Shown: positions 1,117-18,000 of the stretch, piece by piece
Position numbering within the stretch: position 1 is the first letter of the stretch
Layout of the letters: each line of letters begins with the position of its first letter
Virus record (IMG/VR): IMGVR_UViG_3300023172_001913
Coordinates: 1 to 20,916 of that record
Length of the DNA: 20,916 bases
Source of the DNA: a virus
Direction: 5' to 3' (one strand)
Notes under the pieces: generated by a model
Database searches by the model: none
What the model was told of the DNA's origin: nothing
The model's input: only the letters and a program-made list of their open reading frames with translations
Position numbers and translations under genes: made by a program

Positions 1117-1512
1117 ATGGCAACGTCAGATATCTCATTTAGAGATGTAAACATTTCTTTTAAGAAGCATCCAGTAACGGACGATGTTGTCGTTGCCAAG
1201 GATGCTGCTGCCATCAAACAAGCGATTGGTAATTTATTATTAACAAACCGAGGCGAGCGTATGTTCAAACCAGACTATGGTTCGGACTTGCGCCGCTTTT
1301 TGTTTGAACCAATGTCGCCAATTACTGCTGGTCAGATTACACAAAGTGTTAGATATACTATTAGTACATTTGAACCAAGGGTCCAACTGCTAACAACTGA
1401 AACAAATCCAAATTATGATGACAATGGATTTGATGTTGAGATTACGTACAAGATTCTAGGTTCCGATATTCCACCCGTTGCTGTAGAGTTCTTCCTGTCT
1501 AGGACGAGATAA
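1117..1512 (+). CDS. 25: Baseplate wedge protein gp25
   Basis: This 131-residue protein matches the gp25/GPW family, whose members are about this size (T4 gp25 is about 132 aa). Family landmarks include the central helix and turn NLLLTNRGERMFKPDYGSDL (residues 39-58), followed by RRFLFEP. The EPR motif (86-88) is conserved in gp25-like proteins, including type VI secretion TssE. In T4, gp25 joins gp6 and gp7 in the core bundle of the wedge and contacts the first sheath ring, so it helps to start sheath assembly. The ATG at 1117 is directly preceded by an in-frame TAG (1114-1116), so the start cannot lie further upstream. No clear Shine-Dalgarno is visible. The stop overlaps the gene 6 start as TAATG, a typical translational coupling arrangement. 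In T4, gene 25 is not next to gene 6; here the partners are adjacent. Confidence 0.95.
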   Translation: MATSDISFRDVNISFKKHPVTDDVVVAKDAAAIKQAIGNLLLTNRGERMFKPDYGSDLRRFLFEPMSPITAGQITQSVRYTISTFEPRVQLLTTETNPNYDDNGFDVEITYKILGSDIPPVAVEFFLSRTR

Positions 1513-3317
1513 TGCCATATACCCAGTTAAACAATCTAGATTTCCTCCAAATCAAGAATGCTCTCAAAGATTACATGAGAGCTCAGTCGGATTTTACTGA
1601 CTATGATTTTGAGTCATCTGCTCTAAGTCAGTTGCTGGACGTACTGGCGTATAACACATATTACACCGCATTCAACACTAATATGGTGGTGAATGAGTTG
1701 TTTTTGGATTCTGCAACGTTGCGTGACAATGTTGTTTCTCTTGCTAAACAACTTGGATATACACCAAAGTCAATTACCGCTCCAAAGGCAAATATTTCGT
1801 TCAACGTAACTTTTACTGGAAATTCCGCACCCACATCTGTTACTATCAAGAAAGGAACGGGTTTTATCACAAATTATGATAATTCGCTATACAATTATAT
1901 TTTGAGGGAAGATAAGACGTTCCCCGTCGTAAATGGAGTTGCTTCAATAACAAATATTGATATTTACGAAGGGTCTATTGTTGAATCAAATACCGTTGTT
2001 AATTCCTCTTTAAAGAATCAGAAGTATACCATTGCAAACCCCTCAGCTGATCTAAGCACGTTGAAGGTTAAAATTTTTGATTCAACCACTTCAACTACTT
2101 ATCAAGAGTATAAGAGATCTGACAGTATTTTAGATATTGGTGCGGAAGACAAAGTATTTTTCGTCAGTGAAATTGAAGACGAAAGGTATGAATTGTTTTT
2201 TGGTGATGGTGTACTGGGAAGAAAGCTTTCAAATGGTGAAGTAGTCCAAATTAGTTATATCCAAACCAGTGGAGCGGAAACCAATGGAGCAAAGTCTTTT
2301 ACTTTTAGTGCTAGACTTCAAGATGAGAATAATGCAAATATAGGAATTCCTTTTGGAGTAAGTTCTATTGTTGTTAACAGTGTTGCTACTGGTGGTGCCA
2401 ATATTGAAAGTATTGAAAAAATCAAATTCAATGCCCCTAAGTTCTATAGTTCTCAGAACAGAGCAGTAACAGCAAATGACTATGCGGCAATTGTAAGAAA
2501 CATATATCCATCAGTTGGCGACATCATTGTGTTTGGTGGTGAGGATCAAGAACCTCCTGCATATGGTAAGGTATTCATTGCTATTAAACCGACTGAAGCA
2601 GCATCCTTGTCATCATACACAAAGAATGAATTATCAACAGAACTTAGAAAGTATACAGTTGCGTCTGTAAAACCAGAGTTTATTGATCCATCAATTTTGT
2701 ATATTGAACTCAATAGTAAGATCTACTTTGATGGCACGAAGACAAACATGATACCAACACAGGTTTCAGATAACGCAGCAAAGTCCGTTCAAGAGTATTT
2801 GAAGACATCTCAGACTGAGAAGTTCAACGGTAAGTTTAGATATAGCAAATTTATTGGAGTTATTGATAATAGTGATCGGTCTGTAAATTCAAATGATACG
2901 GATATCACTCTCAGAAAAGATTTTTATGCACAGATTAATGCATCGTCATATTACGAAATTTGTTACCAAAATGCATTCTTAGAAGACTGCGATGATCCTG
3001 TAGTTTCTTCTACTGGTATGACTGTGTTTGAGTATCCCACTTACACCTCATATCTAGAGGATAGGGATGGCAAAATCGTCCTATATAGACTAGATTCTTT
3101 AACTGGAGAAAAAATTCTCCTTAATGATTCTGTCGGTGATATTGATTATGCAAAAGGCGAAATCAAACTATATGATTTCACTATCTTAAAGGGTTCGTTC
3201 TCGGACAATCGCGTTGAACTGAGAGTAAAACCTGCTAACAAAGATATTGAAGTCAAGCGTGAGGTATACTTAGATGTTGATATCTCAAAGAGTACATTTG
3301 TAGCATACAAAGAGTAG
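1512..3317 (+). CDS. 6: Baseplate wedge protein gp6
   Basis: This 601-residue protein belongs to the gp6 / baseplate J-like family (T4 gp6 is about 660 aa). Gp6 dimers form the continuous ring that ties the wedges together around the central hub. The N-terminal region (about 28-85) has the typical DFESSALSQLLDVLAYNTYY stretch followed by NELFLDSATLRDNVVSLAKQLGY. The middle carries YELFFGDGVLGRKLSNGEVV (from about 226), a recurring signature of baseplate J proteins. From 308 the sequence APKFYSSQNRAVTANDYAAI begins the conserved second half. The start codon shares its A with the gp25 stop (TAATG), and AGGA at 1501-1504 could serve as a ribosome binding site. The gene ends in three consecutive TAG codons, and the next gene starts directly after them in the same frame. 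Confidence 0.95.
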   Translation: MPYTQLNNLDFLQIKNALKDYMRAQSDFTDYDFESSALSQLLDVLAYNTYYTAFNTNMVVNELFLDSATLRDNVVSLAKQLGYTPKSITAPKANISFNVTFTGNSAPTSVTIKKGTGFITNYDNSLYNYILREDKTFPVVNGVASITNIDIYEGSIVESNTVVNSSLKNQKYTIANPSADLSTLKVKIFDSTTSTTYQEYKRSDSILDIGAEDKVFFVSEIEDERYELFFGDGVLGRKLSNGEVVQISYIQTSGAETNGAKSFTFSARLQDENNANIGIPFGVSSIVVNSVATGGANIESIEKIKFNAPKFYSSQNRAVTANDYAAIVRNIYPSVGDIIVFGGEDQEPPAYGKVFIAIKPTEAASLSSYTKNELSTELRKYTVASVKPEFIDPSILYIELNSKIYFDGTKTNMIPTQVSDNAAKSVQEYLKTSQTEKFNGKFRYSKFIGVIDNSDRSVNSNDTDITLRKDFYAQINASSYYEICYQNAFLEDCDDPVVSSTGMTVFEYPTYTSYLEDRDGKIVLYRLDSLTGEKILLNDSVGDIDYAKGEIKLYDFTILKGSFSDNRVELRVKPANKDIEVKREVYLDVDISKSTFVAYKE

Positions 3318-3323: not shown

Positions 3324-6300
3324 ATGTTGAAAACTGCTAAAAAAATCTCATTTCTAGTTGAGTCTCAGTTACCCGACTTCATCAATGAAGAGTACGAACT
3401 TTTTACAAAGTTTGTCAAAAAATATTATGAGCAACTAGAATTACAAGGACAACCACTTGATATTATCACGAACCTTGAGACGTATCGTGATATTGATTTT
3501 TATGAGAAAAATATTCTCAAGCAGTCTACTACATTGATTGGTAGTCTCAGTGCGTCTGCTACTACAATTACAGTTGATGATGCATCCTCCTTCCCAAAGA
3601 ACGGAGGATATATTAAAATTGATGATGAGATCTGTTTCTATACTGAAAGAACGGATACTCAATTTTTAGAAGTAAGTCGTGGTGTGAGTGGTAATACAAA
3701 ACTTGGCGACTTATATACAGAAAGCACATTTGTTACCACACAAGCAGCAACTCATGTAAATGGATCTACTGTACAGAATATCAGTAATCTATTTTTATAT
3801 GCATTAGTAAAAAGTTTTGAGAAGCAGTATCTTGCTGATTTCCCAGAAGCATATTTAAAAGAGGGAGTTGACAAGAGAACTCTAATTAAGAATATTTCAT
3901 CATTCTATCAGGCTAAGGGAACTGATAGGTCTATTCAGTTCCTATTCAAATGTTTGATTAAGGATGATCCAGAACCAGAAATTGCATATCCTAGAGATTC
4001 AACACTAAAAGGTTCTGAATCTACGTGGATTCAGGTTTATGCATTAAAAGCAAAGGTCGTTTCTGGTAATCCAGAAGATCTTGTCGGTAAGTCTATTACA
4101 CAAAATACGGCAGAGGGGTTTGCATCTGCTGTTGTTGATAATGTAAAGTTTGCTGGTACATATGATGGCGAAGATCTATATGACATCATTTTGGCAGAAC
4201 AAACTGTCAATGGGACATTCTCCATCGCAGCAAGAACCAAACTAACAAAAGAAGTAACTGCATCAACTACTATTGGTGATAGAATTGATGTCTTTTCAAC
4301 TCTTGGTTGGTCAAAGCAAGGAGAGTTTAAACTTGACGACGAAACTATCAAGTTTGAAGAGAAGAATGTAAATCAATTTGTAATTAAAAGTAGAACAGGT
4401 ACTGGTGTTCATCCTGTTGGCACTGCTGTTACATATGGTGCGAATGTTTCTGGTAATAGCGTAAGTCTGTTGGTATTTGGTATTCTTTATAATGTTAACA
4501 ATATTTCAGACTATCCACACTCTTCTACTGGCGATTTAGTAGATATTTCGGAAGCAGGATTTCTCACTGACGATGTAAAGATCTTTGATGCTCAGAATAA
4601 TCTGAGATGGATTACGACTGGTTCAACACCAGGATCTTCAAATCATGGATCGGTAACCAGTCAAATTTCAAATCTAAACTCAAACGTATCTGCAATTTTT
4701 GAAGATGGCGAAGGATACTATATCGCATCTTCTGGATTCCCATCACATGACATTATTAAGGCAGGACTAACTATCCCAACAGATCTTCAGGATCAAAAAC
4801 TTCTGAAGATTATTAGAAAGAATCCAATCTCTACAACTGAAGTATATGAGACAAAGTATAGAGATATTGGTATTGCAACTAATGGAATTCCATTTCTAGG
4901 ATACAAAGATGAAGAGGTGGTATTAAACGGACCTCTGCAAACTATTACAGTATCTAATAGAGGAACTGGTTATCGCAAAGAACCATTTGTTCTCGTTGAT
5001 GGAGTAGCAAATTTAGCAAGAACTAAACTTGCAGGTCAGGTTGTTGAGTCTGTGGTTATTGACACCCCTGGCAACTACACCACAACTCCTACTATTGAGA
5101 TCATTTCAGGAAGAAATGCTGAAGCAACTGCTGTTGTTACAAATGGTGAAATTACCAGTATTACCGTTGACAATCCAGGTGAATTTTATTCATCGCCACC
5201 AGAAGTATTGATTTCTGACCGAGCAGGAAAAGGAAGATTTGCTGATTACACTGCAACTATTGATTCTTCTGGAGCAATCACAGGATTTGTCAAAAATAAT
5301 GGAGGAAACCTCTATACTCAAGAAAATGTCTCCGTTCAGATCATTGCAGTAGGATCTGGTGCGACTGCAACTGCAAAAATTAGAGAGTGGAGAAAAGATC
5401 GTTATTACAAAAACTTATCTAATCTTGATTCCGAGAACGGATACTTCCTGCAGAATTTTGTAAGTTCTCGTGGCAAGGGATATGCTTATTACGCATCACC
5501 ATCTACATTAAGAGCGAATGATAATGGATCCTCTCACTCTCCTATTCTTGGATTTGCTTATGATGGCAATCCCATTTATGGTCCTTATGGTTTTGAGAAT
5601 GCTGTAAATTCTCAGAGTGCTGTTGTAAGAATGACCAGCAGCTACTACAGAAATACTTCTCGTTCAACTGGTCCAGTTGTCGCGACATATCCAATTGGAA
5701 CATTTATTGACGACTACACTTATGTTGACGGATCTGGAACACTAGATCAGAACAACGGAAGATTCTGCGTAACTCCAGAATTTCCAAATGGAACATATGC
5801 ATACTTCATGACTGTAGATGCATCCAATGTTCCTGTTTTTCCATATATTTTAGGTCTCAACTATTATTCATTACCCGTTGATTCAAACTATAATTCGGAA
5901 ATTTCTCAAAATGATATTCCTCTGAGAGCAAAGAGATTGAGGACTTCTGATATTGATAGCAACGGAGACCTTGCTCTTGCGCGAATCAATGATGTAAAGA
6001 GAGGAAGTGTATCTTCTGCGTCAATTACTAGAAGTACCTCCAGTTTTTCAGTTGGATCCAAACTCGTTATTGATAATAGACAAACTGAAGGATCTGGGTG
6101 TGCTGGAGAAGTAGAATCAGTCAAGGGACGCCAAGTAACTGCAATTGAGTCTCAAGACAATAAGTGTCTGTATATTGAACTTGTACGGGATGCATACCTA
6201 TTTGATGGCGATACCATTATTCAGTCTGGAACGGGAGCAACAGGTGAAATTGTCGGCAATGTATTCACATCAAACAAACTAGCACTAAGAAGCATCACAG

Positions 6301-9300
6301 GATCTTTTAGTTCTGGAGATGTGTTCTCATCTACGACTCTCGTTCTATCACTAATTCTTGATAAAAACTCTTCATACACTAAGGGTGCTACCTTATCTCT
6401 GTCTGATGGTGTAAATGCTCCTGTGGCAACTGGAGAGATCCTAGAGACCACCACAGATCAGAATACGGTCAAAGTAAAAGTTCTCACAGGAACTTTTGTG
6501 GCAGATGACACATTGTTCTTGACAAGTTCTGATTTAATCAATACAACTGGTTCGGTAGTCGTATCTTTAACCCCACTGAGCAAAGATCTTCCGATTTTCA
6601 AAATTACTGATAATGTAGCACTACTATCAACTTCAGACTCACATGGTGTTGCAGTAGGAGAAAAAATTAATGTTGACATCAATCCCGATGATTCAACCAC
6701 TACAACAACATATTATGTAAGAAGCAGAATTTATCAAGAAGTAGTCTTCAAAAACCCAGGCGTAGACAGGGTTCTCAGCGACACTGGCGTTGGTAGAGTT
6801 GCAATTCTAAATGGTGGTGAAGATTATACGCCAAACACTTATACTGGTATTGCACTTTCTGGTGGAACTGGAACTGGCGCTGAAGCAACCATTGTGGTTT
6901 CCTCAACAGGTTCTGTTTCCAGTATTACTATCACTAATAAAGGATCTGGATACTCTAAGTTTGATTTGCTTACTGTTGGAGATTCTGCATTAAGCAAAAC
7001 TGATTCCACAACACCAAAACTTCAGGTAAGTGTTGATCATGCTGGTTTCTCTATTCAGAACGCAGTATTGAATGTTGATAGTGCGATTGGTATTACGGTC
7101 AACGATTTCCTACAAGTAAATAATGAGATCGTAAAAGTTATTAATAGAACCAACAATGCTCTAACTGTAGAAAGAGCGCAGAAAGGAACTGTTGCTGTAG
7201 ATCATTTTAATGGTGCCGTCGTTTCTATTTACGATCCTGGATATAATTTAACTGCTGGTTATCACATTGGAACAACTAGCAAAGATCCATATGTATTCTC
7301 ATATGATCCAACTACTCAGAAAGCAGTCTTTGTATACGACTACGCAGAGTCTTTGTCGTCTATTGCAAAATTAGGTTTGGGTTCGGTTTTCTTTGATCAA
7401 AGTGCGGATCAGAGATTAGTTGAAATTGAAAGCGTTACAGAACCAGATTTATACTTTGAGTTCTCTTCTGATAACGTAACTTTTGAAAGAAATAAAGTTA
7501 TAGACATCAAAAAGTATTACAAGTATAATTTTGATGTTTCTCACTCTTCCATGAGTACCGTTAACTTTGATTTCTCTCCAAGCATCAATTTGAATGTTCT
7601 GGCGCTAGAGAAAACTGATTCAGCAAACATTGTTGATTTGAAGATTGGATTTGGAGCAAGAATTTCAACCAATCAATATACTCAAAAGAAAGATGTTCCA
7701 TTTACAAAGTATTTTTACTTTGATAGAAATGGTAAGGTAAACTCAGAGAGGTCTTATGTAAATGTAATTAATGATCCTCTGCAAGGAGATAAGACTGCAT
7801 TGTACGTGACTGACAACAGAGTCATGTACGAAACTGGAATTGCGGCACCTCATGACGGCAGTGGAACGATCACCTACATTTCAAAATCTATTTTCTCAAT
7901 CGGTGAAATTAATTCTGTTAAAGTTACTAATATTGGACGAGATTACATCAAAATTCCTCTAGTAACTGGCATTGTCCCATCTTCTTCTTACTTGGCACAA
8001 GCAGAGGCGTCTGTAGAGTCTGGAAGACTAGTTGGGGTATCTGTTACTAAGTCAGGATCAAATTACTCAAAACCAATTGCTGTAGTTGAAGGAAATGCAA
8101 AACTATCAACTATTGTAGATGGCGGTAAAGTTACTGGTATCATCATTGATGATCAAGGTTCTGGATATACTACTGCTCCTACCATTACTGTAATTGAGTC
8201 TGATCTTGATTGTTACATCAATACCCAGGAGATTGGTGTTCCTACCAGTGTTAAAGTAATTAATAATGGCGGATCTTTCCATAACGATAAAACTCTGTCT
8301 TCAACATTTAGATCAAATTACGTACTAACTCTATCCAATTTTGAACTAGATGCTTTTGCAATCGGAGAAACTATTGTCCAAAGATCTGGATCTACCGAGA
8401 TTGCGAGAGCAAGAGTTGCTTCTTGGAGAAAGGGATCCAATCTATTGATTGTAGATAGAATCCGTGGAATCTTTAGAACAGGTCAAGATATTATCGGTCT
8501 TGCTCGCAATAAAACTGCAAGACTTGAGTCATTAAACTATACAGAATTTAATGCTGATATCAAATCATATTATGACAACCAAGGATACTTCCAGTCAGAT
8601 CTAGGAAAGGTCAGTGATTCTAATCAAAGGATTACAGATTCTTACTACTACCAAGATTATTCATACTTGGTTAAGTCTAAGACTCCTATTGATACTTGGA
8701 GAGCACTGATCAAAAAAACCAGTCATCCAGCGGGATTCCAGGTATTTGGTGAAGTTCTAGTTGAGTCATCTTCTAATGTAAAGATGAGTCCACAGAGCAC
8801 AACCAAAACGACCAGCATTGTTCAGTTATGGGATCCTGATGTCAACACTGTCAAGGTAATTAGCACTAAGAAAAAAGTAACTCAAAGCATTGCACTCGTC
8901 AAGAGTATTGAGGTTGAAAGAGGTATTGGTTCAGTAGCTTTAGACTCATTCAATACAAGTGAGATTAGAGCAAAAGAGGTATTCTTAAATGCTTCATTTG
9001 ATGGTGGATTTACCGATAAAGGAAATCTAGAGGGAACTACAACATTTAATTTAGTTGATTCTGATGGAAACTCTGTAGTTCCATACAATGAGCAATCATT
9101 GACTATTACACTAGATGGTATTTTGCAAGAACCTCGCATTGCATATACGGTTTCAAATAACAGAATTACATTTGCAGAACCTCCTCTAGGACCATCGGTT
9201 AAAGATGGTCAGACAGCTCCAGGAGTCAAGTTCTATGGAAGATTATTTGAGTTTAAAACTGATACCCTAAACGGACAATACCTCAAGAAGATTAGAAATA

Positions 9301-12300
9301 TTTTCCAAAGAAGTGGAACATGGATTGATGCTGCGAATCAGCTCAATCAAAACCGAGCATTTATTCAGTCTGAGACTCTTGGTTATATCAAGTCCGAATT
9401 CCCATCATTTACTTGGGGTACACTAGAAAGTAAGTGTTATCGCGATATTGGTCTTGTTGTAGACGCATTAGAACATGATCTGAGATTCGGTGGAAATGAG
9501 AAGACTGTAAAGGCAGCAGAATCTTATTTTAGAGAAGGAACACTTGATTACATCTCTGGCGAGATTAATGCCACCATTGAAGCATTTAGTTATGCGGTTC
9601 GTTTGTGCAAACTTGCAATGAGGAACTGGGATTATGTAGATCGTCAAGTATCTTGGACTCCTGGAACCAATATTGTAGAAACTAGCGATACCAACAACAT
9701 CGCTATTGGTATGAAAGTCAGTGCTGGTAGAGCATTCCCAGAAGGAACTACAGTAACCGATATTCTTGATTCCAGAAGAATCACCGTAAGTAATAATTCA
9801 CTAACGACTAGCGGTCTCCCCTCGGGAAATGCTCAGATGACATTTATCTGGAGTGGATTAAATACTGGTACATTCTTTGATGCCTCTACTCTTATTGAGA
9901 AGAATAGAACTAATATTCAGCGCGAAGCAGCACATAGAATTTACGATCAATATCCAAACTTCACATACCCAAGAGTTCCAGAAGCAGCATACAGATTTAA
10001 AGATGCGAGAAGATTGATCTATGAGAACTTACAAGATATCGTTTCACAAACAATCACCGAACTTGAGTCAACCTTTGGTGCTGAGTACGCTACAGATAAA
10101 TGTGCTAGAGATCTTAAGATCATTGTCGCTGCTGTCGCTGAAGATACCGCACGTGGAGGAAACTCAACAACAATTGAAGCCACAAATCAATACTTTGACA
10201 ATCACGATGCACTAGACGGCGAGAGAACTGAATCTGTCTATGCATTTGAATACGCAAGAGAACTGTGTATTGAGGCGCTAAACAACCGTGGAACATATAC
10301 AGATGCAAACATCATTCTTGTTCCAGAGTGTACGAATGTAAATTCTGCAGTAACTACATTATTTGATATTCTAATTTCTTCCATCACAAACAATCAGAAA
10401 CCTACTATTACCAAAAACACTGGTATTAAGGAGTGGGTTGAAGCAGAAGACTTCTGTTTCAGAGATACTGGACTGTTTGTTGATGCTGTTGTTTATTGCC
10501 TACGTTACGGTGGCAATGAGAAAGTTATTGACTTCGCCAATGCTTACTTCTACAAGGGCGACATCAACCACGTTAAGGGTGAGTTGAGAGAAACAATCTA
10601 TGCTTATAATCAAGCAAGAGATTTGATGATTGCTGCAATGCTAAATCAAATTTCAGGAACAACTATTATTGCTCCTGCCACAGATCCTCTTGTTCGTATT
10701 GATACGACTTCTCCTTACTGTGCTGAAGTACAAAGTGCTATCACAACTTATGCACAGATTGTAGAAGATACTCTAGAAGGAGGTCCAGATAGAATTGAAG
10801 TTATTCCTCAGAATGAAAACTCCGCTGGAAATTGGACCACTCTCAAGACATATTCAAACATCAATATTCTTCCTGACGTACAACTAGTAAATGGCATTCT
10901 CAAAGAATGCGAAGAAGTTGCTTCAGCACTGGATTCTTTGTATGAAAATGTTCGTGCAACTCTAGTTACTGGAGTAGGAACTGCGACTGTTTCAAGAGCA
11001 GATTATATTGATGGCGAAAACACCGAATTTGAATTGTATTATGAAGATGGTACTGCTGTTAGCACCCAACCAAGAGAAGATCTCTTTATTGCATTGAGCG
11101 GTGTATTGCAGCATGAAACTGCATATACTATTGATAGAACATCTGTACCAAACAAGGTTGTCTTTGCTACTCCACCAATTTGGGGTCAGGAAGAAAACAC
11201 AAAGACTGTTCAGGAACCACTAGCAGTTGAGAAATTCTTCGCTCATAATGTAGGAAAGTATTATCGTTGTGAAATTGATAAGTCTGGTATTTTGACTGGT
11301 TCTGCTGGACCATTCATCATCTTAAATACCGAAGATAAAACGGTACAGAATGTTGACGACCCTCGTTTCGCATATGTTTTTATTGATGGTGTCCTTCAAA
11401 GAGAAACCGATGCATATACAATCAACGGTCCTGCGATTACATTCACCAGAAAAATCTTTAATGATAACAATATAGAAATCATACTGCTCTATGGTAGAGA
11501 TACTGAGCAGACCGTAACTCTATTTGATTTCCAACGCAATACTTATTATAACGAGATTGTATTGACTTGTGATGCAGGATCTGCAAATGAGTTCTTGGAT
11601 TGGAAGTCATGGTATAACAATTCATATGACAAGTTTAAAGTTGCTTATCAGAAAGTTGGTGGTGTCAAGAAGTTTATTGGAAACTTAAAATCATATACAT
11701 CAACATCACAGTCGCTGATTATTACCTTTGCAGGAAATAATCCAGATATTGACAGCAGCAACATTTTCTTTGCGGGTGATTCCGATTTTGCTGATGAGTA
11801 TGAATTGACTGGTACAACTAATACTCTGGTCGTTGTTAGAAACGAAGATAATGATTATAGAATGCAAAGAAATTCTGCTGATTGGTTATATGGATCCGAA
11901 AAGGCAGATGAAGCGTTCTATGAAAGACAGAGACTTCTGGCAAATCTAAACGCAGGTGATATTATCAGAATTGATGGTGAGAAGTCGTTTAGAACCATCA
12001 ACAAACTTCCAAGATATGTAAGTCCAAAAGACTATAATCCTGGTGAAGATGTATCAAACAGTTTCTTTGGATCTGTCACTACAACTAATTATGATGGAGA
12101 GACCGAAGGTGTAGGTCTTAGCGTAACATGCGAAATAACCAATGGAAGCGTAACTTCTATTACATGGAATAGGAAAGATCTACAACTTCTATATGATGAG
12201 GGTATTATTCAACCCACCACTGCATATGGATATAAGACTCCTCCTGTACTACACTTCATTCCCGTAGATCAGCAGGGTGGTGGTGCTAGAGCAGAAGTTG

Positions 12301-13241
12301 TTGTCTCTAGAGGACAGATTATTGATATCGTAATTACAAATCCTGGTTCTGGTTATGTGAAAGCACCAAAGGTTGTAACTGCAAGACAATACGATATTAT
12401 TAAACAGAAGGGAAGAAAAGTTGATACTTTCCACACTCTCGTTATTGGTTCTCAAATTCAACAGCAATCTCCTGTTGCTGCAACTGTAGCCTTTGAATTC
12501 CTCACTGGCATTGAGTCTCTCAGCACCTTTACTGCATCAGCGATTGATGGTGGATATGATGTCAATCTTATCATTCAGAGAGAACTTGATCTATCCCCAC
12601 TTCTTACCAGTGACTTGGAAGTTGTTCGTTTTGGTTCTACTTCAATTGGATCTATTCCAGCACCAGTTTCGCAACCAACTTCTTATGTTAGTAAGGTTAT
12701 TGAAATTGATAGATCTATTGAGTCTCAACCTGTTCTTACAACAGAGATTGCAACAACGTTCTTCCATGAGTTTGGATTCGCTACGAATTCTAACCTTGAA
12801 AACCTAACATTGTTTAATACATTTGAGCAATGGCAGAACTCAACCTTTATAGATACAGGTAATCTAGTATCGGATAATGGTATCGCTATTTCAAAAGTGA
12901 CTCTTGAAGAACTGGAAGCATATGAGATTACTGCAGATGGAGAATCAACTACAGCATTGAGTTTCAATCTTGCGTATCCAACGATTAATTATTACATGCA
13001 AATTCTTGACGTTGCTGATCTACCTGCCGAGGGTGGTCCTGGTTATGCCGCAACGGGAGCAGTTGTATATGTAAACGGTGATACATCTAGGTTCCCTGCT
13101 TCTGGAACCATTTTGCTAGGAAGAGAGCAAATTTCTTACACTAGCAAACTCAGTGATCGTTTCTTAGATTGCACAAGAGGTGTCAATGGAACACCTATTG
13201 AAGAGCATCTCACAGGAGAGTACCTAAGAAACGCCCTATAA
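3324..13241 (+). CDS. 7: Giant gp7-type baseplate wedge protein, 3305 aa, modular
   Basis: Position between genes 6 and 8 matches T4 gene 7. Two blocks resemble, from memory, the C-terminal part of T4 gp7. The first (about 1-300) contains VDKRTLIKNISSFY, KGTDRSIQFLFKCL and EDLVGKSI. The second (about 1743-1816) contains SYYYQDYSYLVKS and KKTSHPAGFQVFGE. T4 gp7 (about 1030 aa) initiates wedge assembly and binds gp6, gp8 and gp10. Inserted and added modules: beta motifs ending in RG..G[TN] (about 76-123, 313-373, 1247-1306, 3246-3305); glycine-tyrosine modules (about 542-710, 1156-1220, 1529-1662, 2987-3025); a YHYH domain (743-852); helical Cys repeats (2000-2535); DGxLQ motifs (1926-1958, 2587-2620, 2683-2712). 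An in-frame TAG directly before the ATG fixes the start. No strong Shine-Dalgarno is seen. The N-terminal half of T4 gp7 is not recognisable. The family assignment is an inference; the reading frame is certain. Confidence 0.82.
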   Translation: MLKTAKKISFLVESQLPDFINEEYELFTKFVKKYYEQLELQGQPLDIITNLETYRDIDFYEKNILKQSTTLIGSLSASATTITVDDASSFPKNGGYIKIDDEICFYTERTDTQFLEVSRGVSGNTKLGDLYTESTFVTTQAATHVNGSTVQNISNLFLYALVKSFEKQYLADFPEAYLKEGVDKRTLIKNISSFYQAKGTDRSIQFLFKCLIKDDPEPEIAYPRDSTLKGSESTWIQVYALKAKVVSGNPEDLVGKSITQNTAEGFASAVVDNVKFAGTYDGEDLYDIILAEQTVNGTFSIAARTKLTKEVTASTTIGDRIDVFSTLGWSKQGEFKLDDETIKFEEKNVNQFVIKSRTGTGVHPVGTAVTYGANVSGNSVSLLVFGILYNVNNISDYPHSSTGDLVDISEAGFLTDDVKIFDAQNNLRWITTGSTPGSSNHGSVTSQISNLNSNVSAIFEDGEGYYIASSGFPSHDIIKAGLTIPTDLQDQKLLKIIRKNPISTTEVYETKYRDIGIATNGIPFLGYKDEEVVLNGPLQTITVSNRGTGYRKEPFVLVDGVANLARTKLAGQVVESVVIDTPGNYTTTPTIEIISGRNAEATAVVTNGEITSITVDNPGEFYSSPPEVLISDRAGKGRFADYTATIDSSGAITGFVKNNGGNLYTQENVSVQIIAVGSGATATAKIREWRKDRYYKNLSNLDSENGYFLQNFVSSRGKGYAYYASPSTLRANDNGSSHSPILGFAYDGNPIYGPYGFENAVNSQSAVVRMTSSYYRNTSRSTGPVVATYPIGTFIDDYTYVDGSGTLDQNNGRFCVTPEFPNGTYAYFMTVDASNVPVFPYILGLNYYSLPVDSNYNSEISQNDIPLRAKRLRTSDIDSNGDLALARINDVKRGSVSSASITRSTSSFSVGSKLVIDNRQTEGSGCAGEVESVKGRQVTAIESQDNKCLYIELVRDAYLFDGDTIIQSGTGATGEIVGNVFTSNKLALRSITGSFSSGDVFSSTTLVLSLILDKNSSYTKGATLSLSDGVNAPVATGEILETTTDQNTVKVKVLTGTFVADDTLFLTSSDLINTTGSVVVSLTPLSKDLPIFKITDNVALLSTSDSHGVAVGEKINVDINPDDSTTTTTYYVRSRIYQEVVFKNPGVDRVLSDTGVGRVAILNGGEDYTPNTYTGIALSGGTGTGAEATIVVSSTGSVSSITITNKGSGYSKFDLLTVGDSALSKTDSTTPKLQVSVDHAGFSIQNAVLNVDSAIGITVNDFLQVNNEIVKVINRTNNALTVERAQKGTVAVDHFNGAVVSIYDPGYNLTAGYHIGTTSKDPYVFSYDPTTQKAVFVYDYAESLSSIAKLGLGSVFFDQSADQRLVEIESVTEPDLYFEFSSDNVTFERNKVIDIKKYYKYNFDVSHSSMSTVNFDFSPSINLNVLALEKTDSANIVDLKIGFGARISTNQYTQKKDVPFTKYFYFDRNGKVNSERSYVNVINDPLQGDKTALYVTDNRVMYETGIAAPHDGSGTITYISKSIFSIGEINSVKVTNIGRDYIKIPLVTGIVPSSSYLAQAEASVESGRLVGVSVTKSGSNYSKPIAVVEGNAKLSTIVDGGKVTGIIIDDQGSGYTTAPTITVIESDLDCYINTQEIGVPTSVKVINNGGSFHNDKTLSSTFRSNYVLTLSNFELDAFAIGETIVQRSGSTEIARARVASWRKGSNLLIVDRIRGIFRTGQDIIGLARNKTARLESLNYTEFNADIKSYYDNQGYFQSDLGKVSDSNQRITDSYYYQDYSYLVKSKTPIDTWRALIKKTSHPAGFQVFGEVLVESSSNVKMSPQSTTKTTSIVQLWDPDVNTVKVISTKKKVTQSIALVKSIEVERGIGSVALDSFNTSEIRAKEVFLNASFDGGFTDKGNLEGTTTFNLVDSDGNSVVPYNEQSLTITLDGILQEPRIAYTVSNNRITFAEPPLGPSVKDGQTAPGVKFYGRLFEFKTDTLNGQYLKKIRNIFQRSGTWIDAANQLNQNRAFIQSETLGYIKSEFPSFTWGTLESKCYRDIGLVVDALEHDLRFGGNEKTVKAAESYFREGTLDYISGEINATIEAFSYAVRLCKLAMRNWDYVDRQVSWTPGTNIVETSDTNNIAIGMKVSAGRAFPEGTTVTDILDSRRITVSNNSLTTSGLPSGNAQMTFIWSGLNTGTFFDASTLIEKNRTNIQREAAHRIYDQYPNFTYPRVPEAAYRFKDARRLIYENLQDIVSQTITELESTFGAEYATDKCARDLKIIVAAVAEDTARGGNSTTIEATNQYFDNHDALDGERTESVYAFEYARELCIEALNNRGTYTDANIILVPECTNVNSAVTTLFDILISSITNNQKPTITKNTGIKEWVEAEDFCFRDTGLFVDAVVYCLRYGGNEKVIDFANAYFYKGDINHVKGELRETIYAYNQARDLMIAAMLNQISGTTIIAPATDPLVRIDTTSPYCAEVQSAITTYAQIVEDTLEGGPDRIEVIPQNENSAGNWTTLKTYSNINILPDVQLVNGILKECEEVASALDSLYENVRATLVTGVGTATVSRADYIDGENTEFELYYEDGTAVSTQPREDLFIALSGVLQHETAYTIDRTSVPNKVVFATPPIWGQEENTKTVQEPLAVEKFFAHNVGKYYRCEIDKSGILTGSAGPFIILNTEDKTVQNVDDPRFAYVFIDGVLQRETDAYTINGPAITFTRKIFNDNNIEIILLYGRDTEQTVTLFDFQRNTYYNEIVLTCDAGSANEFLDWKSWYNNSYDKFKVAYQKVGGVKKFIGNLKSYTSTSQSLIITFAGNNPDIDSSNIFFAGDSDFADEYELTGTTNTLVVVRNEDNDYRMQRNSADWLYGSEKADEAFYERQRLLANLNAGDIIRIDGEKSFRTINKLPRYVSPKDYNPGEDVSNSFFGSVTTTNYDGETEGVGLSVTCEITNGSVTSITWNRKDLQLLYDEGIIQPTTAYGYKTPPVLHFIPVDQQGGGARAEVVVSRGQIIDIVITNPGSGYVKAPKVVTARQYDIIKQKGRKVDTFHTLVIGSQIQQQSPVAATVAFEFLTGIESLSTFTASAIDGGYDVNLIIQRELDLSPLLTSDLEVVRFGSTSIGSIPAPVSQPTSYVSKVIEIDRSIESQPVLTTEIATTFFHEFGFATNSNLENLTLFNTFEQWQNSTFIDTGNLVSDNGIAISKVTLEELEAYEITADGESTTALSFNLAYPTINYYMQILDVADLPAEGGPGYAATGAVVYVNGDTSRFPASGTILLGREQISYTSKLSDRFLDCTRGVNGTPIEEHLTGEYLRNAL
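4947..5215 (+). repeat. Tandem glycine-tyrosine beta modules in gp7-type protein
   Basis: At least three diverged protein-level copies follow each other: TVSNRGTGYRKEPFVLV, VVIDTPGNYTTTPTIEI and ITVDNPGEFYSSPPEVLI. The consensus is a beta strand, then N/D-x-G-x-[GF]-Y, a few residues, P, and a second strand. Further copies occur near 6790-6975, 7908-8310 and 12282-12395. The DNA is not repeated closely, so the copies are old. Confidence 0.75.
5550..5880 (+). other. YHYH-type domain inside the gp7-type protein
   Basis: Residues 743-852 contain GFAYDGNPIYGPYGFENA, then NGRFCVTPEFPNGTYAYF and VFPYILGLNYY. This order is typical of YHYH domain proteins, found in bacteria, eukaryotes and large phage virion proteins. 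The domain's function is not established. Here it sits among beta repeats as one inserted module. Confidence 0.7.
9321..10980 (+). repeat. Cys-containing helical repeats in gp7-type protein
   Basis: Protein-level repeats cover residues 2000 to about 2550. Unit A, WIDAANQLNQNRAFIQ (from 2000), recurs as FFDASTLIEKNRTNIQ (from 2184). Unit B starts at Cys 2038 (CYRDIGLVVDA), 2260 (CARDLKIIVAA) and 2378 (CFRDTGLFVDA), and each copy is followed by R-[FYG]-GGN or RGGN about 15 residues on. A second Cys follows 55-57 residues later in the first two copies (2095, 2315); Met 2435 takes its place in the third. A CxxVxSA tail follows at 2336, 2466 and 2529. The segments look mostly helical, unlike the surrounding beta modules. 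Confidence 0.8.
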
Positions 13242-13290: not shown

Positions 13291-15048
13291 ATGGCAGCTA
13301 TTATTTCAGAAAAGTTTAGAATTTTTAACGCGAAGCAGTTTCTAGAATCCCTAAGCGAAGGTTCTAATGATGCTGATGCAGGTCGTACAAGAATGTACTT
13401 CTTCGTTGGCAGATCTTCTAGATGGGATGCTTACATTGAAATCTTCAACGTAAGTGGAACTTTCCAAGTAGGAGAAACTGTTAGTGGAGGTGGATGGAGT
13501 GGCGTCGTTGCTGCCGTTTATCCTAACAGTCTTCTACTGAACACCATTCTTCCAACGCCTACTACTACACCAGCGTTTGGAACTACACTTACTGGAGGCA
13601 CTTCTGGTGCAACCTCTAAGTCTGGTGTATACAGATATGCAACGGAAGATGCTCCCCCAGCACCACTAGACAACAGATCCGAAAAAAGAGCAATCTACGA
13701 AGAACTAATCGCTGCCAAGAGAATCACTTCACCATTTGCTCGTGCCGTTGTTCCCCGCTACAACTGGAACACTTCACTGAATCCAAAGTTTGACATGTAC
13801 CGTCCAAACTACTCTGCTACCCCAGGTGGCGGTGGTGCTATTGGAGTACAGACTGCACTAGGCGCTACTTCACTGTCTGCTTCTAAGTTCTATGTCATGA
13901 ACGACCAGTATGAGGTCTTTAAGTGCCTCTATAACGGTCAGAATCCAGCAAACCCAACTGGACAAAACGCTACTTACGAACCAAAGTCTCAACCAACTGC
14001 TGGTCAAGGTACATTTGCAAACGGAATCTTCACAGAACCAGCAGGAACTGCTGGATACATCTGGAAGCATATGTTCACTCTTTCTACAGGTGATGTTCTT
14101 GCTTTCCTCTCAACAGACTTCATGCCAATCGCTGCTGCGGGTGATGCTTCAAGAACCGCAGTAGAGGCTCTTGCTGTTGATGGTGCAGTCAATGTTGTTG
14201 TCACCAAAGATGCAGGAACTGGTCTTCCTCCTAGTGCAACTCTATATGCTGCAATCATGGGAGATGGAACTGGCGGTAAAGTAACATTTACGACAGATGG
14301 TAATGGATCTATCACATCTTCTGCTATTGAAGCAGCAGGATCTGGATATACCTATGGTAATGTTCTTCTAGAGACTAATAAGGTCTTCACAGACGCCGCT
14401 CTAACCGCTGCTGCGAGTGCTTTTGCTGGTACTGCTTCCCTAGAGGTCGTAATCGGTCCTGAGGGCGGTCATGGGTCCGATGCGGAGGACGAACTATTCG
14501 CTAAGAGAGTGATGACAAACATTCGTCTCACCTATGACGAAGGTTCAGGCGATTTCCCCGTTGATAACGACTTCCGTCGCATTGGTATTATTCAAGACCC
14601 ATTTGAGTTTGGCACTACCAATTTCGCTGCTGATAGCACCCTACGTGGAACATATGCACTGAAGATTAATGGTGCGTCTGCAGCATACATTCCCGACGAG
14701 GTAATTTCTCAGGATGTTGGTTCTGGAAATACTGCATACGGAACGGTTGTTTCCTGGGATGCTGCTAACGGAATTCTGAAGTATTATCAGTCACCAGACC
14801 TACATACTTCAGGAGGTAAAGTTTACGGATTTACTGGAGGCAATAACGTTGTAGGTGCTACCTCAACCGCTGCTGGTGCAATTGATTCTCTACAAACTGG
14901 AGATCTAGCAGATATTACCTTTGCTTCTGGTCAAGCGACCCCAGAAATTGAACCAAACTCTGGAGAAATCGTATACATAGAGAATAGAAGACAGATTACT
15001 AGAGCTGCTGACCAAATTGAGGACATCAAACTAGTAATTGAATTCTGA
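13291..15048 (+). CDS. 8: Baseplate wedge protein gp8, enlarged
   Basis: This 585-residue protein keeps the landmarks of T4 gp8 (about 334 aa), compared from memory. They are SEKFRIFNAKQFLESL (6-21), YFFVGRSSRWD (36-46), AVVPRYNWNT (from 152), a GYIWKHMF turn (255-262), RRIGIIQDPFEF, and the C-terminal SGEIVYIENRRQITRAADQI reaching residue 585. In T4, gp8 dimers bind gp7 and gp10 within the wedge. The extra length comes from insertions: a beta segment after residue 46 (GTFQVGETVSGGGWSGVV), one containing GSGYTYGNVLL (350-360), and one before the C-terminal block. The only start that fits is ATG 13291: the frame upstream is closed by TAA at 13249 and has no other start in between. There is no clear Shine-Dalgarno. 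The doubled late promoter just upstream suggests independent late expression. Sampled codons are more often C-ending than in the giant gene. Confidence 0.93.
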   Translation: MAAIISEKFRIFNAKQFLESLSEGSNDADAGRTRMYFFVGRSSRWDAYIEIFNVSGTFQVGETVSGGGWSGVVAAVYPNSLLLNTILPTPTTTPAFGTTLTGGTSGATSKSGVYRYATEDAPPAPLDNRSEKRAIYEELIAAKRITSPFARAVVPRYNWNTSLNPKFDMYRPNYSATPGGGGAIGVQTALGATSLSASKFYVMNDQYEVFKCLYNGQNPANPTGQNATYEPKSQPTAGQGTFANGIFTEPAGTAGYIWKHMFTLSTGDVLAFLSTDFMPIAAAGDASRTAVEALAVDGAVNVVVTKDAGTGLPPSATLYAAIMGDGTGGKVTFTTDGNGSITSSAIEAAGSGYTYGNVLLETNKVFTDAALTAAASAFAGTASLEVVIGPEGGHGSDAEDELFAKRVMTNIRLTYDEGSGDFPVDNDFRRIGIIQDPFEFGTTNFAADSTLRGTYALKINGASAAYIPDEVISQDVGSGNTAYGTVVSWDAANGILKYYQSPDLHTSGGKVYGFTGGNNVVGATSTAAGAIDSLQTGDLADITFASGQATPEIEPNSGEIVYIENRRQITRAADQIEDIKLVIEF

Positions 15049-15074: not shown

Positions 15075-18000
15075 ATGCCCCAAAAGACGAACCTGAACGT
15101 AGCACCATTCTACGACGACTTTGACCAGGACAAAAATTTCTACAAAGTTCTATTCCGTCCTGGGTATTCCATTCAGGCGAGGGAGCTAACGCAACTTCAA
15201 TCTATTCTACAGAATCAGATTGAACAGTTTGGCAAGTACGCTTTTAAACAAGGCGAACTTGTCATTCCTGGTGAAGTAGGTCTTAACACCAAACTTCATT
15301 TTGTAAAGTTGTCATCTGTCTCTGAGATTCCTGTCAATCAGGATGGTCAGGTTGTATATAAAAAGTATGACGTAACCCAACTTAAGTCTTTGAGACTTAG
15401 AGGTTTGACCTCTGGCGTTACTGCAACTGTTGTTGAAGCATCAACCGCTACAGAAACTGCGGCTGATGTTGTTTATGTAAATTACAGCAATAGCGGTGAC
15501 GCTGGCAATGAAGAAACTTTTAGACAAGGTGAGACTCTAGAAGTTATTGATGGCGTAAATACTCCCCTCTTGGTTGTGGGAACTGATGGTAGTGTTCTAC
15601 CTACTAGCATCTCAGTAACAGATCCTGATACTAAGGAAGTAACAAGTCTAGAAAGCCCAGCAATGGGATATGCCTCTGCTGTTAAGGTTGAGGAAGGAAT
15701 TTATTTTGTTAATGGTTATTTCGTAAAGAACAGTGCTCAACTGTTGGTAATTGATAAGTATTACGACAAACCATCAGCAAAAATTGGATTTAAGATTAAT
15801 GAGTCCATCTTGACTCCAGAAGAAGATGGTTCTCTCTACGACAATGCTATTGGATCGTCTAACTACACTGCTCCTGGAGCACATAGACTTCAAATCGTAT
15901 TGAACCTTGTTAAGTATTCTCTTGATGAGATTACCGACAAGAATTTCATTCAACTGCTATCTGTATCCCGTGGTTCGGTGCAGAAGCAAGTAGTACAAAC
16001 AGACTACAATCTTCTAGAGCAAACACTAGCACGTCGCACATACGATGAGTCTGGTGATTATGTTGTTGATAACTTCTCTCTTGATTTCAGAGAGTATTAT
16101 CAGAAAGATGGTAACCTAGGAATTTATCCTTTGGGTTCTGATGGAACTGTCAATGGTCTTTCAGCATCCGAAGCAAGTGATAAGTTGCTTGCAACAATTG
16201 GACCTGGAAAAGCATATGTAAAAGGTTTTGAAATTGTAAACAAAGAAACCAAATACATTCCTGTCAATAAAGCAAGAGAAACTCTTGACCGCGATGACAT
16301 TCGCCTCAAGACAAAAGGTCTACCAACATATAAGATTACAAATACATATGGATCAGTTCCCCTGAATGCAGAGGGAGCGGATCTTACTGCATATCCAAAC
16401 CTATTTCTATCATCTGTTTTCAATGATGGTTCACTGGGTCTCAACGACACCGAAGATGCTAACGATTCAAAGCAGACTCTAAGTCGCAGAGGTCAGTATT
16501 TTGATACCAACACTGGTATCAAAACAATCTACATTGACATCAATGCAGCGTATGCAAATACGTATTCAACCCTAACAGATGCTAACTTTGAGAGCACTCT
16601 GGGAACTCTGTGGTTTATCCAAACCAGAACTGATGCGGGTGAACCATCCGTAGCAGCATCTGTAAAGTCAATTGCATTCTCTAAAGTACAGAGACTGGAA
16701 GTAAACAGTTCTTCTAGCAAGACATACCTAGAACTAACCATCACAGGAAGAAAAGATTATCTGGATACTTATTTCCTTGAGTATGACAATGGATCTGGTT
16801 CTAGATATAGAGAAGTATTCCTCACAGAAAATGATGCTATTACTGATGGAGCAAATCCATTTGGTAATATTGTTGACTACAACGAAACAATTACTCCAGT
16901 AATCGGAACCACTAAACCAAGCAACTTCACTCTTCTTGAAAGAGGTAATGGTTTTAACCCCGATACCGATGTTGTCGTATCTAAAGGAAGACAGGCAAAT
17001 GGTGATCCTGTATACAATAGTACATTTGGATTATCCTACTTTGACCCTCAGTTCTTCACTAGAATCCAACTAGACGAACCAATTACAGTTCAAGGCAGTT
17101 TCACTGTCGGTAAGTACGTATACGGTCTTGAGAGTGGCGCTTATGGCGTAGTAGAAGGTCCTACTGACGGATACTACACCACAAGAAAAACTCTTATGGT
17201 CAAAACCCTCTTCGGAAACTTCCAGTCTGGAGAAGTAATCCGTGACGAGGATAACAATTCACTGAGAGTTGCTAGAGATAATACAATTTCTCACTTCATT
17301 GTTAATAACAGAGGTGCAAGTTATGTTGCTGGTTCTCTTCTAAGAATTGACGGTGTTGACTATGATTCTTCAAAGGTCACTCTAGACATTCAGAGTGGTT
17401 CTATTATCTCTGCAACCATTCAAAACAGACAACTATTTAATGTTGAGTATTCCAAACCACCTGTAGTTACAGTTGTACAAGGATCTTCAGGTGGTACTCC
17501 TACCGCTGCTGTTGTCACTCCAGTTCTTGTAAGAAATGCTGTAACGACATATACACCACAAAATGTCAAGTCGTTCTATGCACTGTATGGTTCAGGTGGA
17601 TCAAACACATTTACTTCCGATATTGAAGTAACGAAAGAAAAGTACACCGAAGTCGTTTCAGTTACTGACTTTACGTTTAGTGGAGAACAAGGCAGAAAGT
17701 ATATTGAGTGTAATGGTTTTGGTGGAGATGCTTCCAAGTTCCTACAGCAGGGCGATCTAATTCAATTCACCGACACCAGTGACGTTGTTGTCCGTGCTGT
17801 TGTTCAGCAGGCAACTCAACCAGAGGGTGTTCTTAAGTCAAGAATTTATCTTGATAGATCACTACCAGAGTCTGTAAGTAACAGTAGCGTTGTCAGAGTT
17901 CGTCCTAACATTAGCAACTTTAACCAAGGAACTCTCCTTTATAAGACAGGAACTTCTCAGGTAAGTTCTATTGTTGCAGATAGCGAAGACTCCAAGATCT

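Follow-up and report, generated by a model that had tools for sequence, protein, structure and literature searches.

Phage cpeT genes are usually interpreted as boosting the light harvesting of the host. For the cyanophage genes pcyA and pebS the role has been termed a mystery (PMC3037559), and adsorption of several marine cyanomyoviruses has been reported to be light-dependent (PMC2984593). In many phycobiliproteins, and in some bacterial bilin globins, the chromophore is held by a CxRD motif, whose cysteine forms a thioether to the bilin while the other two residues hydrogen-bond it (PMC10151467). Giant gp7 proteins are already annotated in cyanophages, that of P-HM2 having 4,454 aa, and the protein at the gp7 position of S-CREM2 was detected in virions by mass spectrometry with 91 peptides (PMC10665884). 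Here we describe a 20.9 kb IMG/VR contig (IMGVR_UViG_3300023172_001913, 20,916 nucleotides, analysed whole and called the window below), whose closest relatives are marine cyanomyoviruses. What is new is that the helical cysteine repeats in its gp7-type protein are phycobiliprotein-like domains; in the open-licence papers that we searched we found no report of such domains in virion or phage structural proteins.

Gene order and the split core of the gp7-type protein

The window carries a 211-aa ORF, gp25, gp6, a 3305-aa ORF, gp8 and a DUF4815 ORF truncated by the contig end. The wedge genes, and the modules of the 3305-aa protein that lie outside the repeats, are as follows.

1117..1512, + strand: gp25-like baseplate wedge subunit (PF04965, E 9.8e-17; phrog_261)
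1512..3317, + strand: gp6 baseplate wedge subunit (phrog_219, E 9e-207; PF21379)
3324..13241, + strand: giant gp7-type baseplate wedge protein, 3305 aa (open frame; synteny gp25-gp6-X-gp8; phrog_2885 'baseplate wedge subunit' at residues 7-413)
3843..4109, + strand: gp7 core block 1, residues 174-262, with KGTDRSIQFLFK at 198 (hhalign to T4-like gp7)
5469..5825, + strand: YHYH domain, residues 716-834 (PF14240, E 6.4e-32, 111.5 bits against a cut-off of 25)
8547..8771, + strand: gp7 core block 2, residues about 1742-1816, with HPAGF at 1801 (PF23786 in relatives; hhalign)
9036..9203, + strand: DGxLQ beta module 1, residues about 1905-1960 (matches phage K1 depolymerase 9k4a, E 1.3e-4)
11286..11483, + strand: DGxLQ beta module 2, residues about 2655-2720 (motif located; weak PF13799 match, below cut-off)
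13291..15048, + strand: gp8 baseplate wedge subunit, expanded (phrog_438, E 5.7e-167; PF09215 at residues 552-585 only)

At 3.2 times the 1032 residues of T4 gp7, the protein has the roughly threefold length given in an earlier note on this DNA. In T4 gp7 the motifs KGxxxSxxFLFK and HPxGF are separated by 146 residues (738 and 884), whereas in the window protein they are 1603 apart (198 and 1801), an excess of 1457; C-terminal of HPAGF there are 1504 residues compared with 148 in T4. Gene order, profile matches and this spacing bear out the view of the earlier note that a gp7 core has been split by about 1,450 residues and extended at its C-terminus. The ORF is then best read as a cyanophage gp7: some 1,450 inserted residues divide its T4-like core, and about 1,500 more form a C-terminal region behind it.

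The two blocks do not match gp7 equally well. Block 1 aligns to T4-like gp7 with an hhalign P of 2.8e-5 (probability 74%), as had been anticipated, while the alignment of block 2 is weaker (P = 0.0047, probability 7.5%); PF23786, 'Phage baseplate wedge subunit', matches block 2 in 41/41 relatives (best E 2.4e-6). The Pfam gp7 domains PF21428, PF21427 and PF21456 match T4 gp7 and gave no match in the window protein, nor was any match obtained against the PDB with the whole ORF in phmmer or with profiles of the N-terminal block. The AF2 model of that block was poor (pLDDT 59.5) and was left out of the fold search. Although the Pfam gp7 domains were not found, gp7 is the best name for the ORF because both blocks and the synteny point to it. 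The YHYH module that had been noticed between the blocks is real.

Lengths of ORFs at the gp7 position vary widely, from 1032 aa in T4 through 3305 in the window, 3446 in S-WAM2 and 4454 in P-HM2 to 6076 in Syn9. Since giant gp7 is common in marine cyanophages, as in the last three, the window case is unexceptional, and its size and split are by themselves ordinary for this group. The suggestion of a large extra mass on each wedge is reasonable in the light of the S-CREM2 virion peptides, though the giant size does not set this phage apart; a decoration or a surface for host contact, as the earlier note proposed, would be one possible use of it.

Several smaller observations concern the same genes. 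A beta module ending R-G/A-x-x-G-T/N occurs three times in gp7 (residues about 75-125, 1240-1290 and 3240-3290), the first copy interrupting the N-terminal core block. The gp8 protein is also enlarged, with 585 aa compared with 334 in T4; PF09215 is restricted to its last 34 residues, and an internal stretch resembles the phrog_460 'head closure' modules. The ORF at 223-858 matches phrog_3704, labelled 'ferredoxin', without a Pfam or NCBIfam match, and the label may be wrong.

Phycobiliprotein-like domains and their distribution

Residues 1996-2461 of the gp7-type protein comprise three tandem phycobiliprotein-like domains.

9309..9668, + strand: domain R1, residues 1996-2115, CYRD at 2038 (Pfam match and repeat profile)
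9942..10331, + strand: domain R2, residues 2207-2336, CARD at 2260 (repeat profile, AF2 model, Foldseek)
10338..10706, + strand: domain R3, residues 2339-2461, CFRD at 2378 (repeat profile, AF2 model, Foldseek)

The earlier note had recognised helical cysteine repeats here but missed their identity; of the DGxLQ motifs that it placed after them, the one at residue 2688 does follow, while that at 1931 precedes them.

The Pfam Phycobilisome match (PF00502) is marginal and sits at residues 1981-2043: the whole protein scores 23.6 bits against a cut-off of 22.2 (E 5e-5), with no single stretch above the cut-off alone. A profile was built from 17 phage repeats, from the window and four isolates. 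Against all PDB chains, each of its 57 matches at E<=10 was a phycobiliprotein (best E 2.9e-4), and in these alignments the phage cysteine falls on the bilin cysteine. Comparison of the phage domains with cyanobacterial phycobiliproteins by hhalign gave P = 6e-10, and reversed, shuffled and unrelated controls gave P>=0.09. The match persisted with the Cys, Arg and Asp columns masked (P = 1.6e-5) and with the domains that do not have CxRD taken alone (P = 8.4e-7). When eight whole cyanobacterial genomes were searched, every ORF picked out by the phage profile was 163-185 aa long, as phycobiliproteins are, and one of these lies in the cpcA locus. The local sequence match, of about 64 columns, falls mostly on helices B and E and starts at CpcA residue 32, so that the N-terminal X-Y hairpin lies outside the aligned part.

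A template-free AF2 model of R2-R3 was made from phage sequences alone (pLDDT 84), though learned phycobiliprotein patterns could have guided it. All 50 Foldseek matches listed for this model were phycobiliproteins or derived from them, with a probability of 1.00, among them 8u0f, which is named only 'bacterial fluorescent protein'; the best reached a TM of up to 0.77 by target length at 2.8 A, with modest E-values of 0.009-0.1. The domains are thus predicted to have the globin-like phycobiliprotein fold. With four separate lines of sequence and model evidence in agreement, the C-terminal domains of the gp7-type protein are almost certainly homologous to phycobiliproteins, that is, to bilin-binding globins.

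A tblastn search with S-PM2 repeats matched 312 phage records; of these, 311 carry the name Synechococcus, Cyanophage or Prochlorococcus, and the remaining one is an unassigned marine virus. For comparison, 2405 records contain a gp6 relative, Escherichia phages making up about 626 of them. Fifteen of 18 cyanomyoviruses have 3-15 domain matches each, in ORFs at the gp7 position or in tail fibres, and no match was found in T4, P-SSM2, S-SM2 or S-SSM7. At E<=0.001, the viral proteins matched by Foldseek are tail or structural proteins of phages; where a host is named it is Synechococcus, and some entries are unnamed or uncultured. As far as sequence searches detect it, the domain is restricted to cyanophages plus the one marine virus.

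The putative bilin-attachment site and linkage to cpeT

CxRD is kept in 3/3 window domains and, without exception, in the domains of related contigs (123/123), including all 60 that were not the retrieving match. Among 72 domains from diverse isolates, retrieved by a profile with the Cys, Arg and Asp columns masked, Cys is present in 63/72, Asp in 67/72 and Arg in 37/72, Cys and Asp being among the most conserved columns. We had considered that all repeats keep CxRD, and this was dropped once distant isolates were sampled. In several phages CEDD or CKTD replaces CxRD, and the bilin cysteine is absent from all three detected domains of P-SSM4, a phage of Prochlorococcus NATL2A. The sequences therefore indicate that some phages carry a degenerate bilin pocket, and that persistence of the fold does not need bilin binding.

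Two further cysteines of the window protein are of interest.

10329..10331, + strand: second cysteine of R2 (2336), ahead of its last helix, in the motif C-T-N-V (paired with CpcB Cys153 in the forced full-length alignment only)
10719-10721, + strand: equivalent second cysteine after R3, Cys2466 (motif search)

By the strict pattern C-(A/T)-(N/D)-V, such a cysteine precedes the last helix in 36/75 cases, 76-108 residues downstream. Cyanobacterial T-type lyases serve Cys-beta153 and not the CxRD cysteine (PMC10452541). The candidate second cysteine may correspond to this site in phycocyanin beta, but it is weakly aligned, in the forced full-length alignment only, and is a lead and not a result.

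In S-PM2, Syn1 and S-WAM2, a giant fibre gene encoding 4-7 phycobiliprotein-like domains is found 0.7-1.5 kb downstream of cpeT. Relatives of the window repeat this arrangement, a 2OG oxygenase gene standing between the two, and one of them adds a PebS/PebA-like reductase and a second cpeT; any cpeT of the window's own phage would lie outside the 20.9 kb fragment. A scan for phage CpeT, with a query derived from this block itself, returned 80 loci: a domain-bearing ORF follows on the same strand in 41/41 loci with at least 6 kb downstream, and lies upstream in 0/50 with 6 kb on that side. The PebS/PebA-like reductase gene is directly upstream of cpeT in six loci. Four other cyanophages (Syn9, S-SM1, P-HM2 and P-SSM4) have their cpeT away from any domain gene, with no domain ORF downstream. 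Given these four phages and the origin of the query, the linkage is one conserved arrangement in one lineage and not a law. The proximity of cpeT to genes for virion-protein domains in that lineage suggests that the bilin acceptor may be the virus particle.

Across 16 cyanophages, 12 have both cpeT and the domain, one the domain only and three neither (P = 0.007), a test that ignores phylogeny and carries little weight, and in which P-SSM7 was counted as cpeT-positive from a table in PMC3037559, our own search there being below threshold. The three sampled cyanophages without the domain all lack cpeT. Tracking of the domain by bilin reductases was rejected: P-SSM2 and S-SSM7 have a reductase without the domain, and the reverse is true of most Synechococcus phages. 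S-type lyases (PF09367) were found in none of 18 cyanophages.

In S-PM2 and two other genomes, the first 8-17 bp of cpeT are shared with the gene of a 90-98 aa protein (phrog_4134, T4-GC 730), at 2688-2960 (S-PM2), 5204-5500 and 16601-16897 of the cpeT segments analysed; this protein is a candidate lyase partner. In the S-PM2 record (NC_006820, 161000-183000), 16 tRNAs are placed within the tail-fibre gene, an open frame of 3779 aa; ARAGORN predicts no tRNA in that gene and nine at 163,382-165,302, and the tRNA coordinates of NC_006820 look wrong.

Possible roles and comparison with known systems

Bilin binding is slightly favoured because CxRD is invariant in the window lineage and a lyase gene is linked to the domains. 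The domains would fold during infection in the bilin-rich cyanobacterial cytoplasm, where lyases, either phage enzymes of the CpeT type or those of the host, could join a bilin by a thioether to the CxRD cysteine and perhaps also to the second one ahead of the last helix. The resulting chromoprotein would become part of the baseplate wedge, or in relatives of the tail fibres, at the end of the virion that faces the host. It might serve there as a spacer or adhesin stabilised by its ligand, or as an element that responds to light or bilin during adsorption. Phycobiliprotein homology together with bilin binding is, on balance, the account we would choose; that the virion domains bind bilins could, taken by itself, go either way. 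The fuller proposal, that cyanomyovirus virions are pigmented biliproteins, with gp7 and fibre domains carrying covalent bilins added by phage CpeT and sometimes made by PebS-type enzymes, is put forward tentatively, just on the doubtful side. Any link to light-dependent adsorption is speculative.

The main rival holds that these are phycobiliprotein descendants serving purely as helical spacers or oligomerisation modules, which bind no bilin and whose cysteines are structural or relics. It would explain why the fold persists in several lineages that have lost the Arg and sometimes the Cys, and it suits domains set in tandem among fibre-typical beta modules in virions for which the literature searched reports no chromophore. 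It is a serious possibility, if one we lean against: it does not account readily for the unbroken CxRD of the window relatives, the conservation of Cys and Asp elsewhere, or the association with bilin lyase and, in six loci, bilin reductase genes. On another reading the fold is a protein-protein interface, with which receptor-binding modules imitate or touch part of the host surface or of the phycobilisome; this fits the confinement to cyanophages and one marine virus, the position in tail fibres and baseplate and the variable copy number (3-15 matches per genome). Phycobilisomes, however, are intracellular and beyond the reach of a baseplate, and the most conserved residues include the bilin pocket, with no obvious variable receptor surface, so we regard this as improbable. 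That the helical bundles converged, and that CxRD is there by chance, might be read from the low pairwise identity (about 20%) and the modest Foldseek E-values, but is largely refuted and very hard to credit: the match survives both masking of the motif and exclusion of the CxRD domains, shuffled and reversed controls fail, and the PDB matches and the Foldseek matches listed are exclusively phycobiliproteins.

If bilin binding by the virion domains is true, the unexplained phage cpeT and reductase auxiliary genes gain a structural target, the phycobiliprotein fold is used outside antennae in virus structure, and a pigmented baseplate or fibre becomes a testable cause of light-dependent adsorption.

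Like T4 gp7, the window protein is encoded between gp6 and gp8 and has the KGxxxSxxFLFK and HPxGF blocks; it differs in its length and divided core, in giving no match to the Pfam gp7 domains, and in carrying YHYH, beta and phycobiliprotein-like modules. P-HM2, S-WAM2 and Syn9 (its gp101 fibre) have the same locus, modular giant architecture and phycobiliprotein-like domains, which differ in number and motif, Syn9 having CEDD, CKTD and CKDD; their records do not mention phycobiliprotein homology. Phage CpeT, a T-type bilin lyase whose gene adjoins the domain-bearing fibre gene in one lineage, is a putative modifying enzyme and not an acceptor, and host CpcT acts at Cys-beta153. The bilin biosynthesis-associated globins (BBAGs) are bilin globins outside the antenna; some of them have CxRD, and their genes accompany those of bilin reductases. 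They are stand-alone bacterial proteins and not modules of phage structural proteins, and the likeness is drawn from their description (PMC10151467). With the phycobiliproteins themselves (CpcA/CpcB and phycoerythrin beta; PF00502), the phage domains share the fold, the sequence of helices B-E and the CxRD bilin-attachment motif, and differ in starting at about CpcA residue 32 and in standing in tandem inside virion proteins.
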